Positions 51,889-64,000 of a stretch of DNA of 64,000 nt are shown piece after piece. The stretch comes from Psychrilyobacter piezotolerans (GTDB taxonomy: Bacteria > Fusobacteriota > Fusobacteriia > Fusobacteriales > Fusobacteriaceae). The notes under the pieces were generated by a model that saw only the letters and a list, made by a program, of their open reading frames with translations, was not told where the DNA came from and did not search any database. Numbering within the stretch: position 1 is the first letter of the stretch; the number at the start of each line of letters is the position of its first letter. Location: NCBI RefSeq assembly GCF_003391055.1, contig NZ_QUAJ01000018.1:1-64000 (forward strand), read 5' to 3'. The translations under genes were made by a program, and so were the position numbers.

Positions 51889-52207
51889 CTTTCACCTCTT
51901 AATTTTATAATTCCTAATCATTATACCATAGGATAAATACTTTTCTCGACCCACGATTATTTAATTTATTTCTATTTTGTTTTAAACAATTCTCGAGCAT
52001 ATAGAATTGGTATTTTTTTATCTTTCAAAAATTAAAACTTAAATCAAAAAAATATTTGAAAAAATAATAATTTAAAGCTAAAATATCTATTAAACAGGCA
52101 ACTCCTTTGGTGTTTTATATCATTACCGTAATACACATCAGGATTTGACTGTTTTTTAATTTTTTGCACAAATCAAGTTCTTAAATAACATTAAGGAGGG
52201 GAATATT
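51889..52207. other. Divergent control region before the kinase-GGDEF gene
   Basis: AT-rich, non-coding. Apart from the AAGGAGGGG ribosome site near its end I see no clear promoter or operator. Confidence 0.45.
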
Positions 52208-55200
52208 ATTCACTTAGATGGATTTGAAATAATAGAAAAAATACATAGCGGTAAATCATTATTGTACAGAGGCAGACGATTAAAAGATAATTTATCTGTG
52301 GTGATAAAAACCTTAGGTAAAGCTTATCCATCAAAAGAGATTTTTTCTAGATTAGAACTGGAGTATAGTATCCTATCTAGATTGGATCATGAAGGCATAA
52401 TAAAGGCATATGCTACAAAGAATTTCAAAAGCTCTTTTGTAATTATAATGGAAGACTTCGGAGATGTTTCGCTAAAAGAAATGGTTAGCACAGAGAAACT
52501 CGATGTAAAAGAGTTTTTAGAACTAGCATTACAAATAGTTGATATTGTTGGATATATTCACGAAAACAATATTATCCACAAGGATTTAAATCCTTCTAAT
52601 ATACTTGTAAATGTTTCTACACGCCAGCTAAAATTAATTGATTTTGGTAGTTCTTCTCTAGTGGCATATGAGCATGCTACTTATAAAAGTTCCAATGAAC
52701 TAAAAGGGACAGTTTCATATATATCACCGGAACAAACCGAACGAATAAATAGTGATGTGGATTATAGGTCAGATTTTTATTCATTGGGAATTACATTCTA
52801 TGAAATGCTTACCGGGGAGCTCCCATTTCGAGCAACGGACATCCTGGAGCTTGTCCACAATCATATTGCAAAGGATATTGAAAGGCCAGTTCATCGATTT
52901 CCAGAGATTCCAAACGTTTTGTGGGATATTATTCTTAAAATGACGGAAAAAGATAAGAGGGATAGATATCAAAGTATAGTTGGCATAAGGAAAGATTTAG
53001 AATTATGCCAAAAAAAGCTTAAAGAAGTAGGATCAATTGAAGACTTCGATATTGGTAAACATGACTTATCAAGCCGTTTAGAAATTCCCAAACTCCTTTA
53101 CGGGCGTGAGGATGAGATAAAAACCCTGCTTGACGGATTTTATCATTCAACAGATGGTAATGAAGCAATTTGCTTAATCGGAGGAAAGCCAGGTGTAGGG
53201 AAAACCGCTCTAGTAAAGGAAATTCACAAGTCAGTAATTGAGAAAAAAGGTTATTTCATTTCTGGAAAATTTGAACAATTTCAGCAAGATTTAATTTACT
53301 TTGCAGTTGTTAACGCATTAAAAAAGCTTGTAAAACAACTGCTTAGTGAAAGTGAATCAAGATTGGAGAGGTGGAAACGTCTTATTTTGGAAGCAGTGGG
53401 TCCAAATGGTCAGCTTATTATTGAAGCTATTCCTGAAGTGAAAAAAATTATAGGAGATCAACCAGAACCCCAAGTCTTGAATTCAAAAGAAGCCAAAAAC
53501 CGGTTCATGTTCACATTTCGAGATTTTATTAGAGTATTTGCTAAAAAAGAGCATCCTCTAGTTATCTTTTTAGATGACCTGCAATGGGCGGATATGTCTA
53601 CCATTAATTTGATTGAAACACTTGCTTCTTATAGACCTATTACATATTTTTACTTTATAGGTACGTATAGAAATGATGAAGTAAAGTCAGGACATCCCCT
53701 TTTATTTGCAATTGATGAACTTAAAAAGAATAGGATTGTAAAACAAATCCATTTGCAGCCTTTAAATGAGAGTGATATAAATCGAATCGTAGCGGATACC
53801 CTTTCATCAGATGAGGACAAAGTGAAAATCATCTCATCTGTGCTTTTAAAAAAAACAGAAGGGAATCCTTATTATTTAAAAGAATTGTTTAAGTCCTTTT
53901 ATACGGATAATTTAATCTGGTTTGATACCTCTAAAAGACTCTGGGATTTTGATCAAGAAGCTATTGCGAAAGTGGAAGTGAGCAGCAATGTTGTGGAGTA
54001 CATGATCGAAAAACTGAATAAACTACCAATTGATTGTGTACATATTCTAAAGATCGCTGCCTGCATAGGAACACAATTTGATTTGCATTCAGTGGCAAAC
54101 ATCATGAATGAGCCAACCAGTAAAGTGATAAGTTTATTTGAAAAAGTGGTGAAAGAGGAAATAATACAGCCAATAGACTATCAATACAGAATTGAATTTA
54201 TAAAAAGTTCTGATTTAGACATTAAATACATATCTAAGTTTTCTTTTGTTCATGACAGGGTGCAGCAGGCTGTGTATCATTTACTTGATAATAATATGAA
54301 AAGAAAAGTACATCTCGCTTATGGGAAATTTCTACTTCAGAAGTCTGAACAAGATGATGAAAGCGTCAGATTAATTGATACAGTATACCATTTAAACGAA
54401 GGAAGGTTTCAAATAACTGATATTTATGAAAAAGATAAACTGTGTAGGCTTAATTTAAAGGTTGGGCTCAAGGCTAGGAATGCCTCGGCTTTTCATGAGG
54501 CTTACAACTATTTAAAGGTGGGTCTTGAATTGTTGCCTACAAACCCCTGGGGAAAAGCTTATGAGTTAAGTTTTTCAATGGTTAAAGAATTTTCAGAGTG
54601 TGCATATCTCGCAGGCCACAACGATATAGCAGAGGAAAAGATTCAGGTGTTACTAAGTCACGCAAAGACAGAATTAGAAAGACTCAAGGTATTGAGTATT
54701 TTAACGCAACAGTACTCTACCTTAGGTAAAATGGAAAAATCGATTGATATAGGTCTGGAAGGATTAAAGTTAAGCGGATTAAAGTTATCAAAACATCCGA
54801 ACTCTTTAGTAATTTTAAAAGAGCTTATGCTTATAAAATGGAATCAAGGAAACAGGAAAATTTATGAGCTAGAGGACTCTCCTAAAATGACAGATGAAAA
54901 GCTAATAGCAGTCTTTGGATTGATGATGGAAACATTGACATCAGTTTATTTGACCGGTAATAAAAATCTGTTTGTCTTATTAGTTCTTAAAATGGTGAAT
55001 TTTTCTTTGAGGTATGGTAATTGTTCGGCATCTGCATTTGCATTTTCTGGTTATGGGATGCTGCTTTGCTCTGTCTTTAATAATCCAAAGGATGGTCATG
55101 AATTTGGGAAACTAAGTATGACTCTTAATGAACGCTATCCTGACCCTAAAATAGAATGTAGAATCTTTCATGGATATACGGATTTTATTTTTCATTGGGC

Positions 55201-57319
55201 AAATCATTGGTCGGAAATGACACCGCTTCAAAAAAAGGGCATTAAAATAGGTTATCAGTCTGGTGATTTTTTATATACTTCATACATTGCGCATCATAAC
55301 CATATGTGGAATCCTCAACTTATGTTAGATGAGATGCTAGATAAGAAAAACATGGATCGAGACATTATCAAAGAAACAGGCTATCTTGATGCACTAAATG
55401 AGACAGACCTATTTATTAATACATGTCGTAATTATATGAATATAACCGAAGACAAATACTCACTTGATTATGAGAGTTTTACCGAAAAAAAATGCCTGGA
55501 TGAGATGAAAAAAAATAATTTTACAACAGGTATTACTGCGTATCATATATGGAAAGCAGAAATCTATACTTTTTATGAAGTTTACGATAAAGCTATCGAA
55601 CATATTGAAATAGCAAAACTAACAATAGGATCTGTAATGGGGCTGCCATATATCGCCCGATTTTCCTTAACTACCTTTTTGGCATATGCCGGTCAATATA
55701 AAAAAATGAACAATCAAGATAAAAAACTAGGAAAGAAGCGAATGAAAAAAGAATATAAGCAGATTAAAAAATGGGCCAAATTTTGCCCAAGTAATTTTCA
55801 ACATATTCAACTGATTATGGGAGCTGAATTAGAAAGAGTTTCAGGTAAGCCAATGAAGGCATTAGAACTTTATAATCAAAGTATAGTGAAAGCCCATGAG
55901 AATAAATGGTTACGTGATGAGGCTCTGGCAAATGAGTTGGCTGCAAGGTTCTTTTTAGAGCTAGGCGAAGAAAAAGGAGGAGTAGGGTATTTGCATGATT
56001 CTTATTATCTTTATGATAGATGGGGGGCCACTCGAAAGGTAAAAGATATGGAGAAAAAATATCCCCATTTATTATTTGATAAGCAAATAGTCCGGCAACA
56101 AACTAACCAAACAGGTATAAGTACTATGCCAAACACTTCAACACCATCTGTGCTACTGAATAACAGCAGTAGCACAATCAGCAGTCTAGATTTTTCGACA
56201 ATTTTAAAATCTTCCCAGGCTATTTCAAATGAGATTGTTCTTGAAAATTTTCTCAAAAAGATGATGAAAATTGTTATTGAAAATGCAGGGGCTCAAAGAG
56301 GTTATTTTATTACAAAGACTAATAAGAATTTAGTCATACATGCAAAAGCATCGTTGACTAAAGAAACGGTAGATGTAAAGCTAAATGTTTCGGCTGAGGA
56401 TTACAATAAGCTTCCTAAAAATATAATCAATTACGTTGCCAGAAACCACGAAAAAATAGTAATCTATAATGCAACTCAAGAAGATACATATCAGGATGAT
56501 GAATATATTAAAGTAAACCAGGTAAAATCCATCCTTTGCATCCCATTATTACGTCATAATCAATTAGGGGGTATTTTGTATCTTGAAAATAATTTAACAG
56601 CAGGAGCTTTTACAGTGGAGAGGATAAGAGTTTTGGAAGTTCTAACTTCTAATATACTAATATCATTAGAAAATGCAAGGCTTTATAGGTCACTAGAAGA
56701 ACATAATAGTAAACTTGAACAACAAGTAGCCGAGAGAACAAAGGAATTATCTGTAAAAAATTCTGCCCTTAAAGAAAAAAATCAAAAATTAGAAGAAACT
56801 CAAAAGGAATTGAAACTTTTAGCTATGACAGATCCATTGACAAAACTTCTTAACAGAAGAAGCATGATGGAGAAGCTGCTGTATGAAGAACTACGATATA
56901 GAAGAAGTAAAAGAACTTTTACAATCATACTAATAGATATTGATAACTTCAAAGTTTTTAACGACCAGTACGGACATAACTGCGGGGATTTTATATTACA
57001 ACTACTCGCACAAGAAATGCAATCTTTTTTAAGAGCACAAGATATAGTCTCCCGTTGGGGTGGTGAAGAATTTTTAATTTTGTTGCCAGAGACAGATAGA
57101 GACGGCGGTCTGCATCTTGCAGAAAAACTACGTCAAAAAATTTCAGATCAATTATTTATATACCAAAATATTAATCTTTCCATTTCGCTAACCCTTGGAG
57201 TAACTACTTATGATACTCTAGAAGACATTGAAGAATGTATTAAACTTGCTGATAAAGGACTTTATGAAGGGAAGAACAAAGGGAAGAATTGCGTAGTTTT
57301 TATGGATGATAAGATATAG
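52208..57319 (+). CDS. Ser/Thr kinase-AAA ATPase-GAF-diguanylate cyclase signalling protein
   Basis: The protein has about 1703 residues. Residues 1-275 are a protein kinase (catalytic HKDLNPSN, DFGSSS and SPEQTERIN). An AAA_16-type ATPase begins near 291 (GGKPGVGKTAL near 325, FLDDLQWAD near 453). Helical repeats run to about 1260, a GAF domain spans about 1331-1495, then a coiled coil. A GGDEF domain has the active motif GGEEF near 1618, with an inhibitory RxxD (RAQD) five residues before it. The relatives I know end in a histidine kinase; here the output should be cyclic di-GMP. The kinase frame starts upstream of the first TTG (52262). HLDGFEIIEKI lies in frame directly after an ATT codon eight bases from GGAGG, so an AUU start at 52208 is inferred. 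Confidence 0.85.
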   Translation: MHLDGFEIIEKIHSGKSLLYRGRRLKDNLSVVIKTLGKAYPSKEIFSRLELEYSILSRLDHEGIIKAYATKNFKSSFVIIMEDFGDVSLKEMVSTEKLDVKEFLELALQIVDIVGYIHENNIIHKDLNPSNILVNVSTRQLKLIDFGSSSLVAYEHATYKSSNELKGTVSYISPEQTERINSDVDYRSDFYSLGITFYEMLTGELPFRATDILELVHNHIAKDIERPVHRFPEIPNVLWDIILKMTEKDKRDRYQSIVGIRKDLELCQKKLKEVGSIEDFDIGKHDLSSRLEIPKLLYGREDEIKTLLDGFYHSTDGNEAICLIGGKPGVGKTALVKEIHKSVIEKKGYFISGKFEQFQQDLIYFAVVNALKKLVKQLLSESESRLERWKRLILEAVGPNGQLIIEAIPEVKKIIGDQPEPQVLNSKEAKNRFMFTFRDFIRVFAKKEHPLVIFLDDLQWADMSTINLIETLASYRPITYFYFIGTYRNDEVKSGHPLLFAIDELKKNRIVKQIHLQPLNESDINRIVADTLSSDEDKVKIISSVLLKKTEGNPYYLKELFKSFYTDNLIWFDTSKRLWDFDQEAIAKVEVSSNVVEYMIEKLNKLPIDCVHILKIAACIGTQFDLHSVANIMNEPTSKVISLFEKVVKEEIIQPIDYQYRIEFIKSSDLDIKYISKFSFVHDRVQQAVYHLLDNNMKRKVHLAYGKFLLQKSEQDDESVRLIDTVYHLNEGRFQITDIYEKDKLCRLNLKVGLKARNASAFHEAYNYLKVGLELLPTNPWGKAYELSFSMVKEFSECAYLAGHNDIAEEKIQVLLSHAKTELERLKVLSILTQQYSTLGKMEKSIDIGLEGLKLSGLKLSKHPNSLVILKELMLIKWNQGNRKIYELEDSPKMTDEKLIAVFGLMMETLTSVYLTGNKNLFVLLVLKMVNFSLRYGNCSASAFAFSGYGMLLCSVFNNPKDGHEFGKLSMTLNERYPDPKIECRIFHGYTDFIFHWANHWSEMTPLQKKGIKIGYQSGDFLYTSYIAHHNHMWNPQLMLDEMLDKKNMDRDIIKETGYLDALNETDLFINTCRNYMNITEDKYSLDYESFTEKKCLDEMKKNNFTTGITAYHIWKAEIYTFYEVYDKAIEHIEIAKLTIGSVMGLPYIARFSLTTFLAYAGQYKKMNNQDKKLGKKRMKKEYKQIKKWAKFCPSNFQHIQLIMGAELERVSGKPMKALELYNQSIVKAHENKWLRDEALANELAARFFLELGEEKGGVGYLHDSYYLYDRWGATRKVKDMEKKYPHLLFDKQIVRQQTNQTGISTMPNTSTPSVLLNNSSSTISSLDFSTILKSSQAISNEIVLENFLKKMMKIVIENAGAQRGYFITKTNKNLVIHAKASLTKETVDVKLNVSAEDYNKLPKNIINYVARNHEKIVIYNATQEDTYQDDEYIKVNQVKSILCIPLLRHNQLGGILYLENNLTAGAFTVERIRVLEVLTSNILISLENARLYRSLEEHNSKLEQQVAERTKELSVKNSALKEKNQKLEETQKELKLLAMTDPLTKLLNRRSMMEKLLYEELRYRRSKRTFTIILIDIDNFKVFNDQYGHNCGDFILQLLAQEMQSFLRAQDIVSRWGGEEFLILLPETDRDGGLHLAEKLRQKISDQLFIYQNINLSISLTLGVTTYDTLEDIEECIKLADKGLYEGKNKGKNCVVFMDDKI

Positions 57320-57497
57320 ATTATTTATAGGGATTTTTTCTTTATATCACACTTAAAATAGAATCAATATCTAAAAGATTCGGCTTTATTTTATAAGATT
57401 AACTTCACCATGGTAGCAGACCTATACTATAAATATAACTTGCTATATATCATTAAAAATGATACTATATTTTTGAGACGTTAGCCTGTCCGATTAA

Positions 57498-58273: not shown

Positions 58274-58506
58274 CAGTCCACCACCCTTTTTTCATCATGT
58301 TAATCTAATATTTTGAAATTTTTCTATATCCGTTATTTTCAACCTAATAAAAACTTCTATAAATTCAATGAACTTTATGAGCTCTTCTCTAATTTACTTA
58401 TTTTTCAGCTTTTTCCTCCAAATATACATTCCATCATTTGTTCTAATAGCTCAATAAGGCTCATATAATGTAAATATCCTTACAGCCATATTTAAACTAT
58501 TTCCGG

Positions 58507-58536
58507 TTGACCAAAAACCCTATAAAAGTATATGAT
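58507..58536 (+). promoter_or_regulatory. Promoter of the Septu-like operon
   Basis: TTGACC (58507-58512) and TATGAT (58531-58536) with 18-base spacing, about 30 bases before the start codon. Confidence 0.6.
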
Positions 58537-58566
58537 AATTAAAGGAAATAGATTAGAGGGGGAAAA

Positions 58567-60498
58567 ATGGAATTAGTGTATGTGTGGATAGAAGAATATA
58601 AAAATATAAAAAATCAAGGATTTAATTTTAGTCCAAATCATGAATTTGAACTAATAGAAGAAAATGGTGAATATCGATTGGAAGATAAAATGACAGATAA
58701 AGATAGAATTCCAAAAGAATTTTTTTGGCAAAATATTAGCAGTATAACTGCTATTATTGGAAAAAACGGAAGTGGAAAAACTAATTTATTAGAAATAATA
58801 GCAAGTAAAATAAGTTTTGTAGAACCAATGAATACAAATCTTGAAGGAATTTTTATTTTGAAAAAAGAGGGAGTTTTAACTTGTTATGTCCATAAAAAAT
58901 TAGAAAAAAATTTTAATAAGGGCAATTTAAATATTAGGGTTTTTGGTAATGACGGAGAATATGTATCTTATCCTAGTGCAAAAATAAAAGTTTTATTTTT
59001 AGCAAATCATTTGGACATGCACCATCAAAAACAAAGGTTACAATATGGTCAAATAAATTTTGTTGATTTGTCCTTAAGTTGTCTACTTCGTAATAAATTT
59101 GAAAGGACATTAGACGATATAAAATCATTTAATATTATAAATGATTTTAAAAAAGAAATTATATACAGACAATTACAACTTATTTCAGAATTTAAAGGTG
59201 ATTATCCTTTACCTAAAATATTAAGATTAGAAAAAAATGAGGATATCATTAACATACTTTATGAGAAGTTAATAAAATCAATAAAAAACAATGATATTTT
59301 TTATTTTAGGGGAAATGATTCTTTTGAACCTCCTAAAAATGCAAGTGATTTTAAAAAAGAACTTTTTATAATGCTAAAAGAAGTAAAAAATAGAGCTGAA
59401 AAAATGGATATAACCTTAGAGAGAAATTATAAAAATATTTATATTGAGCCAAATAGAGAATATGATAAACATATGAAAAATAATAAGGAAAGTTTAAATT
59501 CTATTTATAATTTTATTTATAACTTTATATGGTTACTTGAAGAAGGTATTAATTTTATTGGTGCAAATATTGATATACAGGATAAAGAAAAATTAGAAAA
59601 ATTGAATAAAATTTTTTATACATATAAAGAGAAAAGTTGGTTTAGCATAAACTATGAGCCTCCTCTTAGTACAGGAGAAGAAAATTTATTATTTTTTTAT
59701 TCTCAATTACATGATTATTTTAAAAAGTGTGATACAGAAGAATTTATAATTTTAATTGATGAATTGGACAACACGATGCATCCTGAGTGGCAAAGAAAAT
59801 CTTTAAATAAATTATTAAAATTTTTAAACAATTATTTTAATGAAAAGAAAAAAATACAAATAATTACAACTTCTCATTCCCCATTTATGGCTAGTGATTT
59901 AACTAGAGAAAACATAATAATGTTAGAAACTTACAACGAAAATGACAAAGAAACAGAATTAGAAGAAAATGATGACAATTACCAAAAGGTAGGAAACTGT
60001 AAAATAAAAAATCAGAAAAATTTAAAGACCTTTGGAGCAAATATCCACGAACTATATAAAGAATCATTCTTCATGGAGTCTACCATGGGAGACTTTGCTT
60101 TAAGTAAGATAAAAGAAGTGATAGAAGACCTAACAACTTTAGAGTGTATCCAAAGAGCAGATAGAAAATTAAAGAAGCTAGAGAAAAAAGCAGAGGAACT
60201 AAAAGAAAAAGGTGAAGAGTTACCAAAAACAGATAAACTAGAAAAAGATAAACTAGAAGAGAGTACTAGCGAACGTGTTAGAAAAAAAGGCGAAATAGAA
60301 GAAAAAAAAGAAACTATAAAATATATAATCGACCGAGTAGGAGAAAAGGTTATAGGTAGAAAATTAAAAGAAAAGTATAGGGGAATTTTTAGAGAAGAAA
60401 AAAGTACAGAAGAGAAATTAAATAGCAAATGGAATAGTCTTAATGAGGAAGAAAAAGTAAAATTACTAAGCGGAAAGTTTGGTGAAAATAATGCATAA
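58567..60498 (+). CDS. ptuA: Septu-like defence ATPase (PtuA-type)
   Basis: The 643-residue SMC/ABC-type ATPase has Walker A IGKNGSGKTNL (about 64-74), the ABC signature LSTGEEN near 368, Walker B FIILIDELD near 395 and the switch histidine in TTSHSPF near 437. The C-terminal 110 residues form a long, highly charged coiled coil. Its gene overlaps that of an HNH nuclease by eight bases. An ATPase paired with such an HNH protein is the Septu anti-phage system; in some retrons the same pair is the effector. No reverse transcriptase or ncRNA is seen here, so a stand-alone Septu is more likely. Confidence 0.8.
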   Translation: MELVYVWIEEYKNIKNQGFNFSPNHEFELIEENGEYRLEDKMTDKDRIPKEFFWQNISSITAIIGKNGSGKTNLLEIIASKISFVEPMNTNLEGIFILKKEGVLTCYVHKKLEKNFNKGNLNIRVFGNDGEYVSYPSAKIKVLFLANHLDMHHQKQRLQYGQINFVDLSLSCLLRNKFERTLDDIKSFNIINDFKKEIIYRQLQLISEFKGDYPLPKILRLEKNEDIINILYEKLIKSIKNNDIFYFRGNDSFEPPKNASDFKKELFIMLKEVKNRAEKMDITLERNYKNIYIEPNREYDKHMKNNKESLNSIYNFIYNFIWLLEEGINFIGANIDIQDKEKLEKLNKIFYTYKEKSWFSINYEPPLSTGEENLLFFYSQLHDYFKKCDTEEFIILIDELDNTMHPEWQRKSLNKLLKFLNNYFNEKKKIQIITTSHSPFMASDLTRENIIMLETYNENDKETELEENDDNYQKVGNCKIKNQKNLKTFGANIHELYKESFFMESTMGDFALSKIKEVIEDLTTLECIQRADRKLKKLEKKAEELKEKGEELPKTDKLEKDKLEESTSERVRKKGEIEEKKETIKYIIDRVGEKVIGRKLKEKYRGIFREEKSTEEKLNSKWNSLNEEEKVKLLSGKFGENNA

Positions 60499-61627
60499 AC
60501 CTATGAATGATAGTAAAACTGAAATTTTAAAGAAAGCCTATTGGAAATACTTTAAAGAAAAAAAGTTAGAAAATTGGAAAGATAAAATACTTCAATCGGA
60601 GAATATGACATTATTATTTATTAAAATAGTAGAAGTATTAGTTCTTGAAATTTTTTATTCAACTGAAGGAATCGATGAAGCAAAACTAGAAAAAGTTATA
60701 GAAAAATTAGTATGTATAGAAAAAAATGATCTTAAAAAATTAATAAATATAATCGAAAGAAAAATTAGTAGAAATAAGAAGAGTAAAAAAATTGAATATG
60801 CTTTAGGTAGTTCAAATTTGGAAGATAACGCTGATAAAATATCTGACTTTTTTTTAGAGCAATACACAAATTTTCAACAAACAGTTTTTATGACTGACAA
60901 TGTTAGAGACTATTTTTTAACTTGTCCTTACTGTAATGCAACATATTTATTTGATCTTAAACAGAGGAGTAAAAGAGGAGGAGAATCTGGAAACAGTGAC
61001 TATTTTGCAGATCAACTAGACCATTATTACCCGAAGAGTAAATACCCTTATTTAGCTATGTCTATATTTAATTTAATTCCATCATGTCCTACTTGCAATC
61101 ATATTAAAGGAAATAAAGAAAATCATCTACATCCACATTTTGAAGAGATGGGAGATAACGCTAAATTCACCCTATCTATGAGTTGTTTAGGAGAATTAAC
61201 GGGGATAGAATTTGAAAATATGAAAGAATATAAGGAACTCGAAAGTGATCTAGGAACATATGTTAGTTTAAATTTTGATTTAGAAGAAGGATTTAAAAAA
61301 AGAGTGGAATTAAAAATAAAAAAAGATATAGATAGTGAGTTAAAAGAAAGGATTGAAAATTCTAAAAAAATATTTCAACTGGAAAATAAATACAGTGGGG
61401 TTAAGGATGAAATCAGAGACCTTTACTTTAAACATAAGCTTTTAAGTCAATCCCAAAGGGAAGAAACATTGAGTCAGTTTGGAGATTCTTTAGGAATAAC
61501 ACCAGAAGAAATGGAAGAGGTTTATTTTGGTGCTAGAAAAACTGAGGAGCATAAACGACCACTATCAAAATTTATAAACGATATACGGGATTTTTTAGAT
61601 GGTGATGATCAGGATGGTTTTGAATAA
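60491..61627 (+). CDS. ptuB: Septu-like HNH endonuclease (PtuB-type)
   Basis: The 378-residue protein has an HNH core: CPYC (Cys145, Cys148), the catalytic region LDHYYPKSKYP (Asp177, His178) and CPTCNHIKGNK (Cys199, Cys202, Asn203). The four cysteines should bind a structural zinc. The N-terminal 130 residues are helical and Lys/Glu-rich, and the C-terminal part is also helical. As the partner of the upstream ATPase it would cut nucleic acid once infection is sensed. The ATG at 60491 overlaps the end of the ATPase gene, so translation is coupled. Confidence 0.83.
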   Translation: MHKPMNDSKTEILKKAYWKYFKEKKLENWKDKILQSENMTLLFIKIVEVLVLEIFYSTEGIDEAKLEKVIEKLVCIEKNDLKKLINIIERKISRNKKSKKIEYALGSSNLEDNADKISDFFLEQYTNFQQTVFMTDNVRDYFLTCPYCNATYLFDLKQRSKRGGESGNSDYFADQLDHYYPKSKYPYLAMSIFNLIPSCPTCNHIKGNKENHLHPHFEEMGDNAKFTLSMSCLGELTGIEFENMKEYKELESDLGTYVSLNFDLEEGFKKRVELKIKKDIDSELKERIENSKKIFQLENKYSGVKDEIRDLYFKHKLLSQSQREETLSQFGDSLGITPEEMEEVYFGARKTEEHKRPLSKFINDIRDFLDGDDQDGFE

Positions 61628-61640
61628 AGAAATATTTTAG

Positions 61641-61668
61641 AAGGCTCACAATTTTGTGGGCCTTTTTG
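61641..61668 (+). terminator. Terminator of the Septu-like operon
   Basis: AAGGCTCACAA pairs with TTGTGGGCCTT with one G-T pair, followed by T-rich sequence. Confidence 0.8.
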
Positions 61669-62549: not shown

Positions 62550-62677
62550 TTATGATTTTTTTAGCTTATGAGCCTATAAATGTAAAAAAAACAAAAAAAA
62601 ATAAAAAAAAATAAAAAGAAAAATTAAAAAAGCGGGTATAGTAATGTAGGAGTTATTAAATATAGGAGGTAATAGTT

Positions 62678-62884
62678 ATGAAAAAAATATTATTGGGACT
62701 TTTGATAGTAGGAGCTCTTTCAGCTTGTTCGAGTTCAGAGGAAAAAGAAATGGATATGCCAACACAAGTTCAGACATTGAATGAAACTGTTGCTACTCAA
62801 ACGCAAGAATTTGAAGCTTTAAAAGCAGAGGTTGAAGAATTGAAAATGCAAACTGAAGAATTGAAGATGGGAGTGCAAGAGTAA
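62678..62884 (+). CDS. Lipoprotein array, member 1 (coiled coil)
   Basis: The 68-residue product has the signal peptide MKKILLGLLIVGALSAC with Cys17 as the lipidation site, then a Glu/Gln-rich heptad helix ending ELKMQTEELKMGVQE. It is the first of four genes with nearly the same signal peptide and start region, each led by an AGGAGG-type site. It is probably an outer-membrane lipoprotein. Confidence 0.8.
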   Translation: MKKILLGLLIVGALSACSSSEEKEMDMPTQVQTLNETVATQTQEFEALKAEVEELKMQTEELKMGVQE

Positions 62885-62924
62885 ACTGATTTAATTAATG
62901 AAACTAAAAACTAGGAGGAATATT

Positions 62925-63134
62925 ATGAAGAAAATATTATTGGGACTTTTGATAGTAGGAGCTCTTTCGGCTTGTACAAGCTCAAAGGAAAAAGATATGG
63001 AAATGTCAACAAAAGTTGATACATTGAATGAAACTGTTACTACTCAAATGCAAGAATATGAATCATTAAAGGCAGAGACTGAAGAATTGAAGATGCAGGT
63101 GGAAGAATTAAAGATGATGGAAGTGCAAGAATAA
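62925..63134 (+). CDS. Lipoprotein array, member 2 (coiled coil)
   Basis: The 69-residue paralogue of member 1 has the same signal peptide and a helix of about 50 residues (VDTLNETVTTQMQEYESLKA). The ATG at 62925 follows AGGAGG. A longer in-frame start at 62898 has no ribosome site. The two members differ at few positions, which suggests recent duplication. Confidence 0.8.
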   Translation: MKKILLGLLIVGALSACTSSKEKDMEMSTKVDTLNETVTTQMQEYESLKAETEELKMQVEELKMMEVQE

Positions 63135-63174
63135 AGTGATTCAATCAATGAATCTAGAAACCAGGAGGAATATT

Positions 63175-63429
63175 ATGAAAAAAATATTATTGGGACTTTT
63201 GATAGTAGGAGCTCTTTCGGCTTGTACAAGCTCAAAGGAAAAAGAAATGGATATGTCAGCACAAGTAGCCCCAACAAATGTAGCAGCCCCGGTGCAAGCA
63301 GTTCCAGCACAAGCGGCTCCAGTGCAAGTAGTTCCGGTACAAACAGTTCCAGCACCAGTAGCAGCACCAGTAGCAGCTCCGGTGCAGGCAGCACCAGCAG
63401 CTACTTCCGCTCCAGCATACTCTAACTAA
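63175..63429 (+). CDS. Lipoprotein array, member 3 (Pro/Ala/Val-rich tail)
   Basis: The 84-residue product keeps the signal peptide and first residues of the array, but the rest is a low-complexity chain of Ala, Pro, Val and Gln (APVQAVPAQAAPVQVVPVQ). The stop at 63427 is followed, in another frame, by codons for VVKELKIEVQK and a stop. That is a relic of the coiled-coil end seen in members 1 and 2. The tail is probably an extended linker; whether it is functional is unknown. Confidence 0.7.
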   Translation: MKKILLGLLIVGALSACTSSKEKEMDMSAQVAPTNVAAPVQAVPAQAAPVQVVPVQTVPAPVAAPVAAPVQAAPAATSAPAYSN

Positions 63430-63494
63430 TGTAGTTAAAGAATTGAAGATAGAAGTGCAAAAATAAAGTGATTATAAAAATTAGGAGGAATATT

Positions 63495-64000
63495 ATGAAG
63501 AAGATATTATTAGGATTTTTAATAGTAGCAGCTCTTTCGGCTTGTACAGGCTCAAAGGAAAAAGAAATGGATATGCCAACAAAAGTTGATACATTGAATG
63601 AAACTGTAATGGTAAATGCCGATACTCTAACAGAGATTAAATCTGAGTTAGAAGCAACTCAACAAGAGGCCGATATGATGGCAGAACATATGAAGATGGT
63701 AAATGCATTTAAAGGAACAGGTGCTACTGTAACTAAAGTAGACGATGGCTTGCACCTTACTCTTCCCGGAGATTCAGCTTTTAAATCGGGTAAGGCAGTA
63801 TTGAATGACAGTATGAAAGCAGTACTAGATCCAATTGCTGAAACTTTAACAGCTTATCCTGGAGCAGATGCTATGATCAAAGGTCATACAGACAGCTCAG
63901 GGTCTGAAGAAGCCAATCAAAAATTATCAGAGGATAGAGCCGTGGCAGTTTCTAAATATTTAATAGGTAAGGGAATAGATTCTTCCAGGATAGGAATAGT
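63495..64000 (+). CDS. OmpA-family lipoprotein (array member 4), cut by the window end
   Basis: The ATG follows AGGAGG. The signal peptide MKKILLGFLIVAALSAC and the next residues match the array. A helix of about 50 residues leads into an OmpA-type peptidoglycan-binding domain: LTLPGDSAFKSGKAVLN, the motif GHTDSSGSEEANQKLSEDRA and the start of YLIGKGIDSSRIGI. At least 168 residues are visible; the stop is beyond position 64000. It should be anchored in the outer membrane and bind peptidoglycan, like Pal. Confidence 0.88.
   Translation, partial: MKKILLGFLIVAALSACTGSKEKEMDMPTKVDTLNETVMVNADTLTEIKSELEATQQEADMMAEHMKMVNAFKGTGATVTKVDDGLHLTLPGDSAFKSGKAVLNDSMKAVLDPIAETLTAYPGADAMIKGHTDSSGSEEANQKLSEDRAVAVSKYLIGKGIDSSRIGI

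Follow-up and report, generated by a model that had tools for sequence, protein, structure and literature searches.

A single open frame of the window, i.e. the whole stretch of 64,000 nucleotides that was analysed, encodes a Ser/Thr kinase-like domain, an AAA_16 ATPase, a TPR-like superhelix, a GAF domain and a GGDEF diguanylate cyclase domain, in that order. The best explanation, which we hold with moderate confidence, is that its product is soluble and combines a sensor and a diguanylate cyclase in one chain, with a STAND-type switch as its basis. The gene is real, it is intact on sequence, and its architecture is ordinary within its family. Its interest is mainly that of a candidate STAND-gated cyclase.

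Domain architecture

The open frame runs on the + strand from 52208 to the stop codon at 57317-57319, and residues are numbered from 52208. Every Pfam match in the gene exceeded its curated cut-off, and the E-values listed in Table 1 show that the four Pfam domains were not matched by chance. The original prediction of kinase, AAA, GAF and GGDEF domains in one chain was thus borne out. Between AAA_16 and GAF there is a long region without a strong Pfam match. The C-terminus matched GGDEF families only and contains no histidine kinase.

The GGDEF match scored 146.2 bits (cut-off, 23.8). Its signature, RAQDIVSRWGGEEF, consists of a RAQD I-site and, five residues on, GGEEF, in agreement with the pattern GG[DE]EF. 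The metal/base residues are intact in the segment IDIDNFKVFNDQYGH (IDIDNFKVFND), and DPLTKLLNR is also present. The intact GGEEF and RxxD motifs that had been predicted were therefore confirmed.

Table 1. Positions of the gene, its domains and the variable segment in the window
Feature	Position	Strand	Basis and remarks
Segment absent from congener G006 (about 26 bases instead), containing the whole gene	51902..57341		BLASTN of flanks
Shine-Dalgarno AAGGAGG, perfect	52193..52199	+	Read directly; 5 bases before ATT 52205, 8 before ATT 52208
Whole gene	52205..57319	+	Likely ATT start 52205, stop 57317-57319; L073 has ATG at the aligned codon
Ser/Thr kinase-like domain, residues 12-254	52241..52969	+	Pfam PF00069, E 1.1e-39; VIK, HKD..N and DFG present
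AAA_16 P-loop ATPase, nucleotide-binding part of STAND-type NOD	53096..53629	+	Pfam PF13191, E 2.5e-34; conservation, 60 sequences
Remaining NOD (GNP motif, winged-helix FVHD), then long all-helical TPR-like superhelix	53630..56068	+	AlphaFold2
GAF domain, residues 1345-1484	56240..56659	+	Pfam PF01590, E 1.4e-8
Continuous GAF-to-GGDEF helix, residues 1470-1541, ERT signature	56615..56830	+	AlphaFold2, helix 164-235 of model
GGDEF diguanylate cyclase domain, RxxD I-site, GGEEF	56822..57289	+	Pfam, residues 1539-1694, E 9.7e-43

The ATPase-TPR core

The AAA_16 domain (residues 297-474) contains the motifs GREDE, GKPGVGKT and FLDDLQW. The definition of STAND and the contacts of GxP and the winged helix were taken from the available part of PMC6468293. 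The P-loop, Walker B DD and GxP of STAND proteins were found in the gene as GKPGVGKT, FLDDLQW and GNP. Across all 60 relatives in the alignment, G and R of GRExE do not vary, nor do G and K of the P-loop or DD of Walker B. The GN of GNP and the HD of the winged helix are likewise invariant in 60 of 60, and in 55 of them GNP has P as its last letter.

We modelled residues 297-1287 (53096-56068) with AlphaFold2, using 60 sequences, and the mean pLDDT was 90.3. The predicted core comprises a nucleotide-binding domain, a helical domain, a winged helix and a long helical superhelix, as in the STAND-TPR fold. Among solved structures it matched MalT, PH0952 and Apaf-1, the aligned chains being 8bob_C from the maltose system (Z 17.8, rmsd 4.5, 339 residues, within 1-474 of the model), the STAND-TPR protein 6mfv_A (Z 15.9, rmsd 12.8, 510 residues) and Apaf-1 3sfz (Z 15.6, rmsd 8.7, 404 residues). 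The top structural matches were subunits of APC/C and two peptide sensors, Rap and NprR; these may reflect generic helical repeats. The sequence profile of the ATPase-TPR part had no match in the PDB. As modelled, the core folds like STAND switches. It shares with the STAND-TPR ATPases MalT and PH0952 a predicted NBD-HD-WHD core, GNP, the winged-helix histidine and a helical-repeat sensor. It differs from them in having a kinase-like domain before this core and GAF-GGDEF behind it, and MalT is a transcription factor. In STAND proteins with a TPR sensor, the inducer opens the NOD and multimerization follows, according to the part of PMC6468293 available.

The GAF domain and the linker helix

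AlphaFold2, run with nine sequences, predicted one helix of 72 residues between the GAF and GGDEF domains (mean pLDDT 78.2, pTM of the whole model 0.42). The sequence VAERT lies between the two domains, and ERT is invariant in nine of nine GGDEF forms. ERT is described as the signature of the signalling helix (S-helix) in the available text of PMC1592074.

The stretch between ENAxLY (end of GAF) and DxLT was taken as the linker. It is 54 residues long in the window gene, 54 in its homologue G038 from the same phylum, 33 in the Desulfocicer homologue L073 and 40 in six gammaproteobacterial forms. The Scytonema homologue L100 was left out because further domains lie between its GAF and DxLT. All these distances are 5 modulo 7 and so share one heptad phase. 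Three lengths in three branches amount to two independent agreements, for which the chance is about 1 in 49. In the available parts of PMC8041772 and PMC9587094, Rec-GGDEF linkers are reported to vary in steps of seven residues and to work by a register switch, and in 54% of phytochrome-GGDEF proteins the lengths differ by multiples of seven. Similarly to these cyclases (DgcR and PadC), the window protein has a helical linker into DxLT, lengths in steps of seven and an I-site. Its input differs, being STAND-TPR-GAF in the place of Rec or phytochrome.

Possible mechanism

In the STAND-switch explanation that we favour, a ligand or partner would bind the TPR-like superhelix, the NOD would pass from an ADP-closed to an ATP-open state, and the chains would assemble. 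Assembly might act jointly with GAF to fix the register of the continuous signalling helix, bringing two GGDEF domains together to make c-di-GMP, and the RxxD site would limit the product. The kinase-like head would be a regulatory module, which may still phosphorylate in this protein and would be dispensable in GGDEF-ended relatives. Many STAND hubs have more than two protomers, whereas GGDEF works as a pair, and this counts against a pairing of GGDEF domains driven by STAND assembly.

More tentatively, this reading could be carried further. An NLR-like STAND hub would run the cyclase: opening and assembly of the NOD, driven by ATP, would join GGDEF domains through heptad-phased helices and turn a stimulus read by the TPR solenoid into a c-di-GMP signal. 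The kinase would be ancestral and would have become a pseudokinase at least twice among GGDEF-ended lineages, and the sensor would be a socket for swapped outputs, i.e. diguanylate cyclases, nucleotide cyclases, histidine kinases and phosphatases. We regard this wider scheme as possible but doubtful. If the mechanism holds, STAND/NLR-type switches and c-di-GMP signalling are linked in one testable chain. One sensor family with at least four kinds of output would then offer a natural series for how a STAND signal passes through a helix to enzymes.

The kinase-like head

The catalytic lysine, HxD, asparagine and DFG are all present in the window gene (VVIK, HKDLNPSN and DFG). The canonical glycine-rich loop of kinases is GxGxxG. 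The corresponding segment reads IHSGKSLLYRG in the window gene, and GxGxxG was also absent from the 14 relatives displayed. As the loop is not canonical, we call the domain kinase-like.

We scored a kinase as complete when K, D, N and the DFG aspartate were present. Among the ten GGDEF-ended forms, the window gene included, only three have complete kinases (the window gene, G038 and L100) and seven have lost catalytic residues. L073, which is 52% identical to the window gene, has HKN for HKD and DFA for DFG. The six gammaproteobacterial forms have lost the kinase lysine and the aspartates of both HxD and DFG, while retaining intact motifs in ATPase and GGDEF. These six form one clade, so that their loss and that in L073 are two independent events. 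Comparatively, kinases are complete in 66 of the 72 relatives with other endings, which favours a kinase function across the family at large; both rows without an ending label also have complete kinases.

The kinase might itself be the switch, phosphorylating its own chain or a partner and so setting the cyclase, with the ATPase-TPR part as a scaffold. The catalytic residues kept in the window gene, in G038 and L100 and in most relatives with other endings agree with this idea. However, L073 and the six gammaproteobacterial forms have dispensed with catalytic residues and retained intact ATPase and GGDEF motifs, and the glycine-rich loop also speaks against it. We therefore consider a kinase switch unlikely. 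The kinase looks optional in GGDEF-ended forms, and in the window gene it may still be active. The original prediction had joined Ser/Thr phosphorylation, an ATPase switch and c-di-GMP in one chain. The domains and catalytic residues stand, but the phosphorylation part was weakened by the kinase losses in seven of the ten GGDEF forms.

Relatives and their endings

The relatives were 79 loci, the best distinct ones among 556 confirmed stretches in named genomes, and are a sample biased to the closest ones; the window gene is an 80th member outside the 79. By Pfam, the endings among the best 79 of 556 were HATPase_c in 45, Guanylate_cyc in 11, GGDEF in eight, SpoIIE in eight and AAA_35 in five, and two loci (L091 and L139) were cut off by contig ends and have no ending label. 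Each row received its label from a motif script together with BLAST clusters, and the totals agree with the Pfam counts; the identity of the five AAA_35 rows is our own assignment. One locus, L133, was excluded from trees and tables for internal stops in its reading by a script.

The other known chains of this kind had been said to finish with a histidine kinase. This did not hold, as the best 79 include eight GGDEF, 11 nucleotide cyclase and eight SpoIIE endings. The GGDEF-ended genes among the matches listed are those of Desulfocicer vacuolatum (L073, the closest relative among them), Neptuniibacter (L078), Chromatiales (L080), Oceanospirillales (L081), Amphritea (L082), Gammaproteobacteria (L083) and Marinobacterium (L120). 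That of Scytonema (L100) ends in GGDEF-EAL. Long homologues were found in five of 98 genomes of the window's phylum. Two of the five, the window gene and G038, end in GGDEF, two (G061 and G062) end in a histidine kinase and one (G022) ends in SpoIIE, judged by eye. In G038 (L185) the GGDEF gene is interrupted mid-chain by a frame break, which leaves two frames of 605 and 1107 codons from stop to stop.

We also considered whether the GGDEF ending is unique to the window gene. This was ruled out by at least eight other GGDEF-ended loci and by a kinase-TPR-GGDEF chain described in a 2005 survey, in the part of its text available (PMC1262709). That protein, of Clostridium thermocellum (gi 23020879, 1826 amino acids), has a kinase, six TPRs and GGDEF, and the survey suggested a possible role for kinases in the production of cyclic diguanylate. 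By description, the window protein resembles it in its N-terminal Ser/Thr kinase, TPR middle and C-terminal GGDEF in one chain; it differs in that the available text of PMC1262709 gives no AAA and does not name GAF for that protein. The same text describes dual kinases with GAF and histidine kinase (HstK type). The kinase, AAA-TPR and GAF parts of the window gene align over their full length with histidine-kinase-ended loci; those of cyanobacteria, among the matches listed, are 34-38% identical to the window gene. The output of the HstK type, a set defined here by description, is a histidine kinase, whereas that of the window gene is GGDEF and no histidine kinase was found in it. In the open-licence literature, we found no further paper on this architecture beyond PMC1262709 and no assay of any GGDEF-ended family member. 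The architecture is not new by itself; the newer part is a clearer reading of its middle as a STAND switch.

The GGDEF forms fell in three places on a FastTree tree of 84 rows and on a quick IQ-TREE tree of 32 rows chosen from the 84. The window gene, L073 and G038 made one clade on both trees. In a tree of 39 GGDEF domains, the ten forms were again found in three places. These positions imply that endings were swapped repeatedly, and that the five-part gene as a whole is common to distant phyla. A single origin of the GGDEF-ended forms was rejected. Forcing nine rows into a clade (the window gene, G038, L073 and the six gammaproteobacterial forms, with L100 left out) cost 170.9 log-likelihood units on the quick 32-row tree (AU test, P = 2.2e-5), a group picked after viewing the 84-row tree and a dataset in which many rows differ in letter composition. 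The idea that the ending was recently swapped in from one of the genome's own cyclases was rejected too. The GGDEF domain of the window gene grouped with those of L073 and G038 and with none of the 29 own-genome GGDEF domains compared (29 of 39 others). By sequence comparison, the ending of the window gene is one of several interchangeable endings in a widespread protein family.

In six of six gammaproteobacterial loci (L078, L080-L083 and L120), the same two genes (at L078:5361-6909) precede the GGDEF gene. Scanned in two of the loci, one of the pair resembles GGCT/AIG2 and its companion was matched by no Pfam family. They are possible partners of the gammaproteobacterial pseudokinase-STAND-GGDEF proteins.

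Start codon and apparent acquisition of the gene

No ATG, GTG or TTG was found upstream of the first kinase strand of the window gene. The first standard start is TTG 52262, which was the start given by the ORF tool. ATT 52208, from which the original prediction began, is the codon right after another ATT at 52205. As L073 has ATG where the window gene has ATT 52205, and a Shine-Dalgarno sequence lies ahead of it (Table 1), we infer that the gene starts there, and the ATT could be a start-codon mutation. ATT is a rare start codon; thus expression of the gene is uncertain and may be low, and there is doubt that the protein is made in quantity.

The gene lies in a variable site. At the same junction, frames of about 410 codons that are unrelated to it stand in congeners G007 and G005. 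No long match to the gene was found in seven sampled congeners, four of which are only 62-81% complete. This 5.4 kb is missing from a congener, and the gene appears to have been gained by horizontal transfer. GC content is 32.8% in the segment and 33.4% in the rest, nearly equal, so that the segment has no compositional mark, and no obvious target duplication was seen at its ends. Among the window, L073 and G038, no neighbour genes were conserved, and only antisense overlaps inside the gene itself were shared.

It could be argued that the gene is recently gained cargo, poorly expressed or decaying, without a set role in the species. Its patchy presence in the congeners, its ATT in the place of ATG and the split gene of G038 would fit such a history. 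On the other hand, the Shine-Dalgarno sequence is perfect, and some 1700 codons have stayed in an unbroken frame whose tested catalytic residues are conserved at only 52% identity to L073. The latter suggests that the gene was under selection for most of its history. We judge the cargo explanation improbable, to about the same degree as a kinase switch.

c-di-GMP in the host genome

The host genome (3.36 Mb, completeness 99.8%), of which the window occupies part of contig C18, has 40 GGDEF matches, the window gene included, which is the sole gene of its kind there. It also has ten EAL, nine HD_5 and one MshEN matches. Eight c-di-GMP-I riboswitches scored above the gathering score, and none of 14 control genomes was matched. 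No c-di-GMP-II riboswitch was found in the host genome, but none was found in the control genomes either. PilZ was not matched in the host genome (its profile matched five of the 14 control genomes), and the window had no Rfam match at the gathering score. A search of the genome for c-di-GMP effectors, as had been suggested, thus did reveal candidates (the riboswitches and MshEN).

With 39 further GGDEF matches in the genome, the loss of one cyclase would be tolerated. This is the sole point in favour of a GGDEF domain that is no longer a cyclase and instead binds GTP or c-di-GMP and controls the remaining chain. Degenerate GGDEF receptors usually lose the GGDEF signature. Signature, metal and I-site residues are intact in ten of the ten GGDEF forms examined, the window gene included, and we think a converted receptor quite improbable. 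The window GGDEF domain looks able to make c-di-GMP. An inactive cyclase in a genome without effectors, the outcome that the original prediction had set against itself, is not borne out on sequence grounds, given the intact domain, the 40 GGDEF matches and the eight riboswitches.

Adjacent variable regions

A STAND-type immune sensor carried as defence cargo is the least probable reading and very unlikely: the STAND-like core, the second variable insertion with a candidate defence pair adjoining the variable site and the resemblance of the kinase part to the PD-T4-6 and MAD6 models of PADLOC would suit it, but the PADLOC matches span the kinase domain only, which any Ser/Thr kinase might match, and the relatives end in ordinary signalling outputs.

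The candidate pair, at 58567-61627 on the + strand, consists of an AAA ATPase and an HNH gene similar to the candidate defence system PDC-M62A/B and, more weakly, to Septu PtuA/PtuB. Congeners G006 and G007 lack the segment at about 58457-61662. At about 62650-63610, adjoining a gene for an OmpA-type lipoprotein, there are several similar stretches, and parts of this region match G006 and G007 at more than one position.
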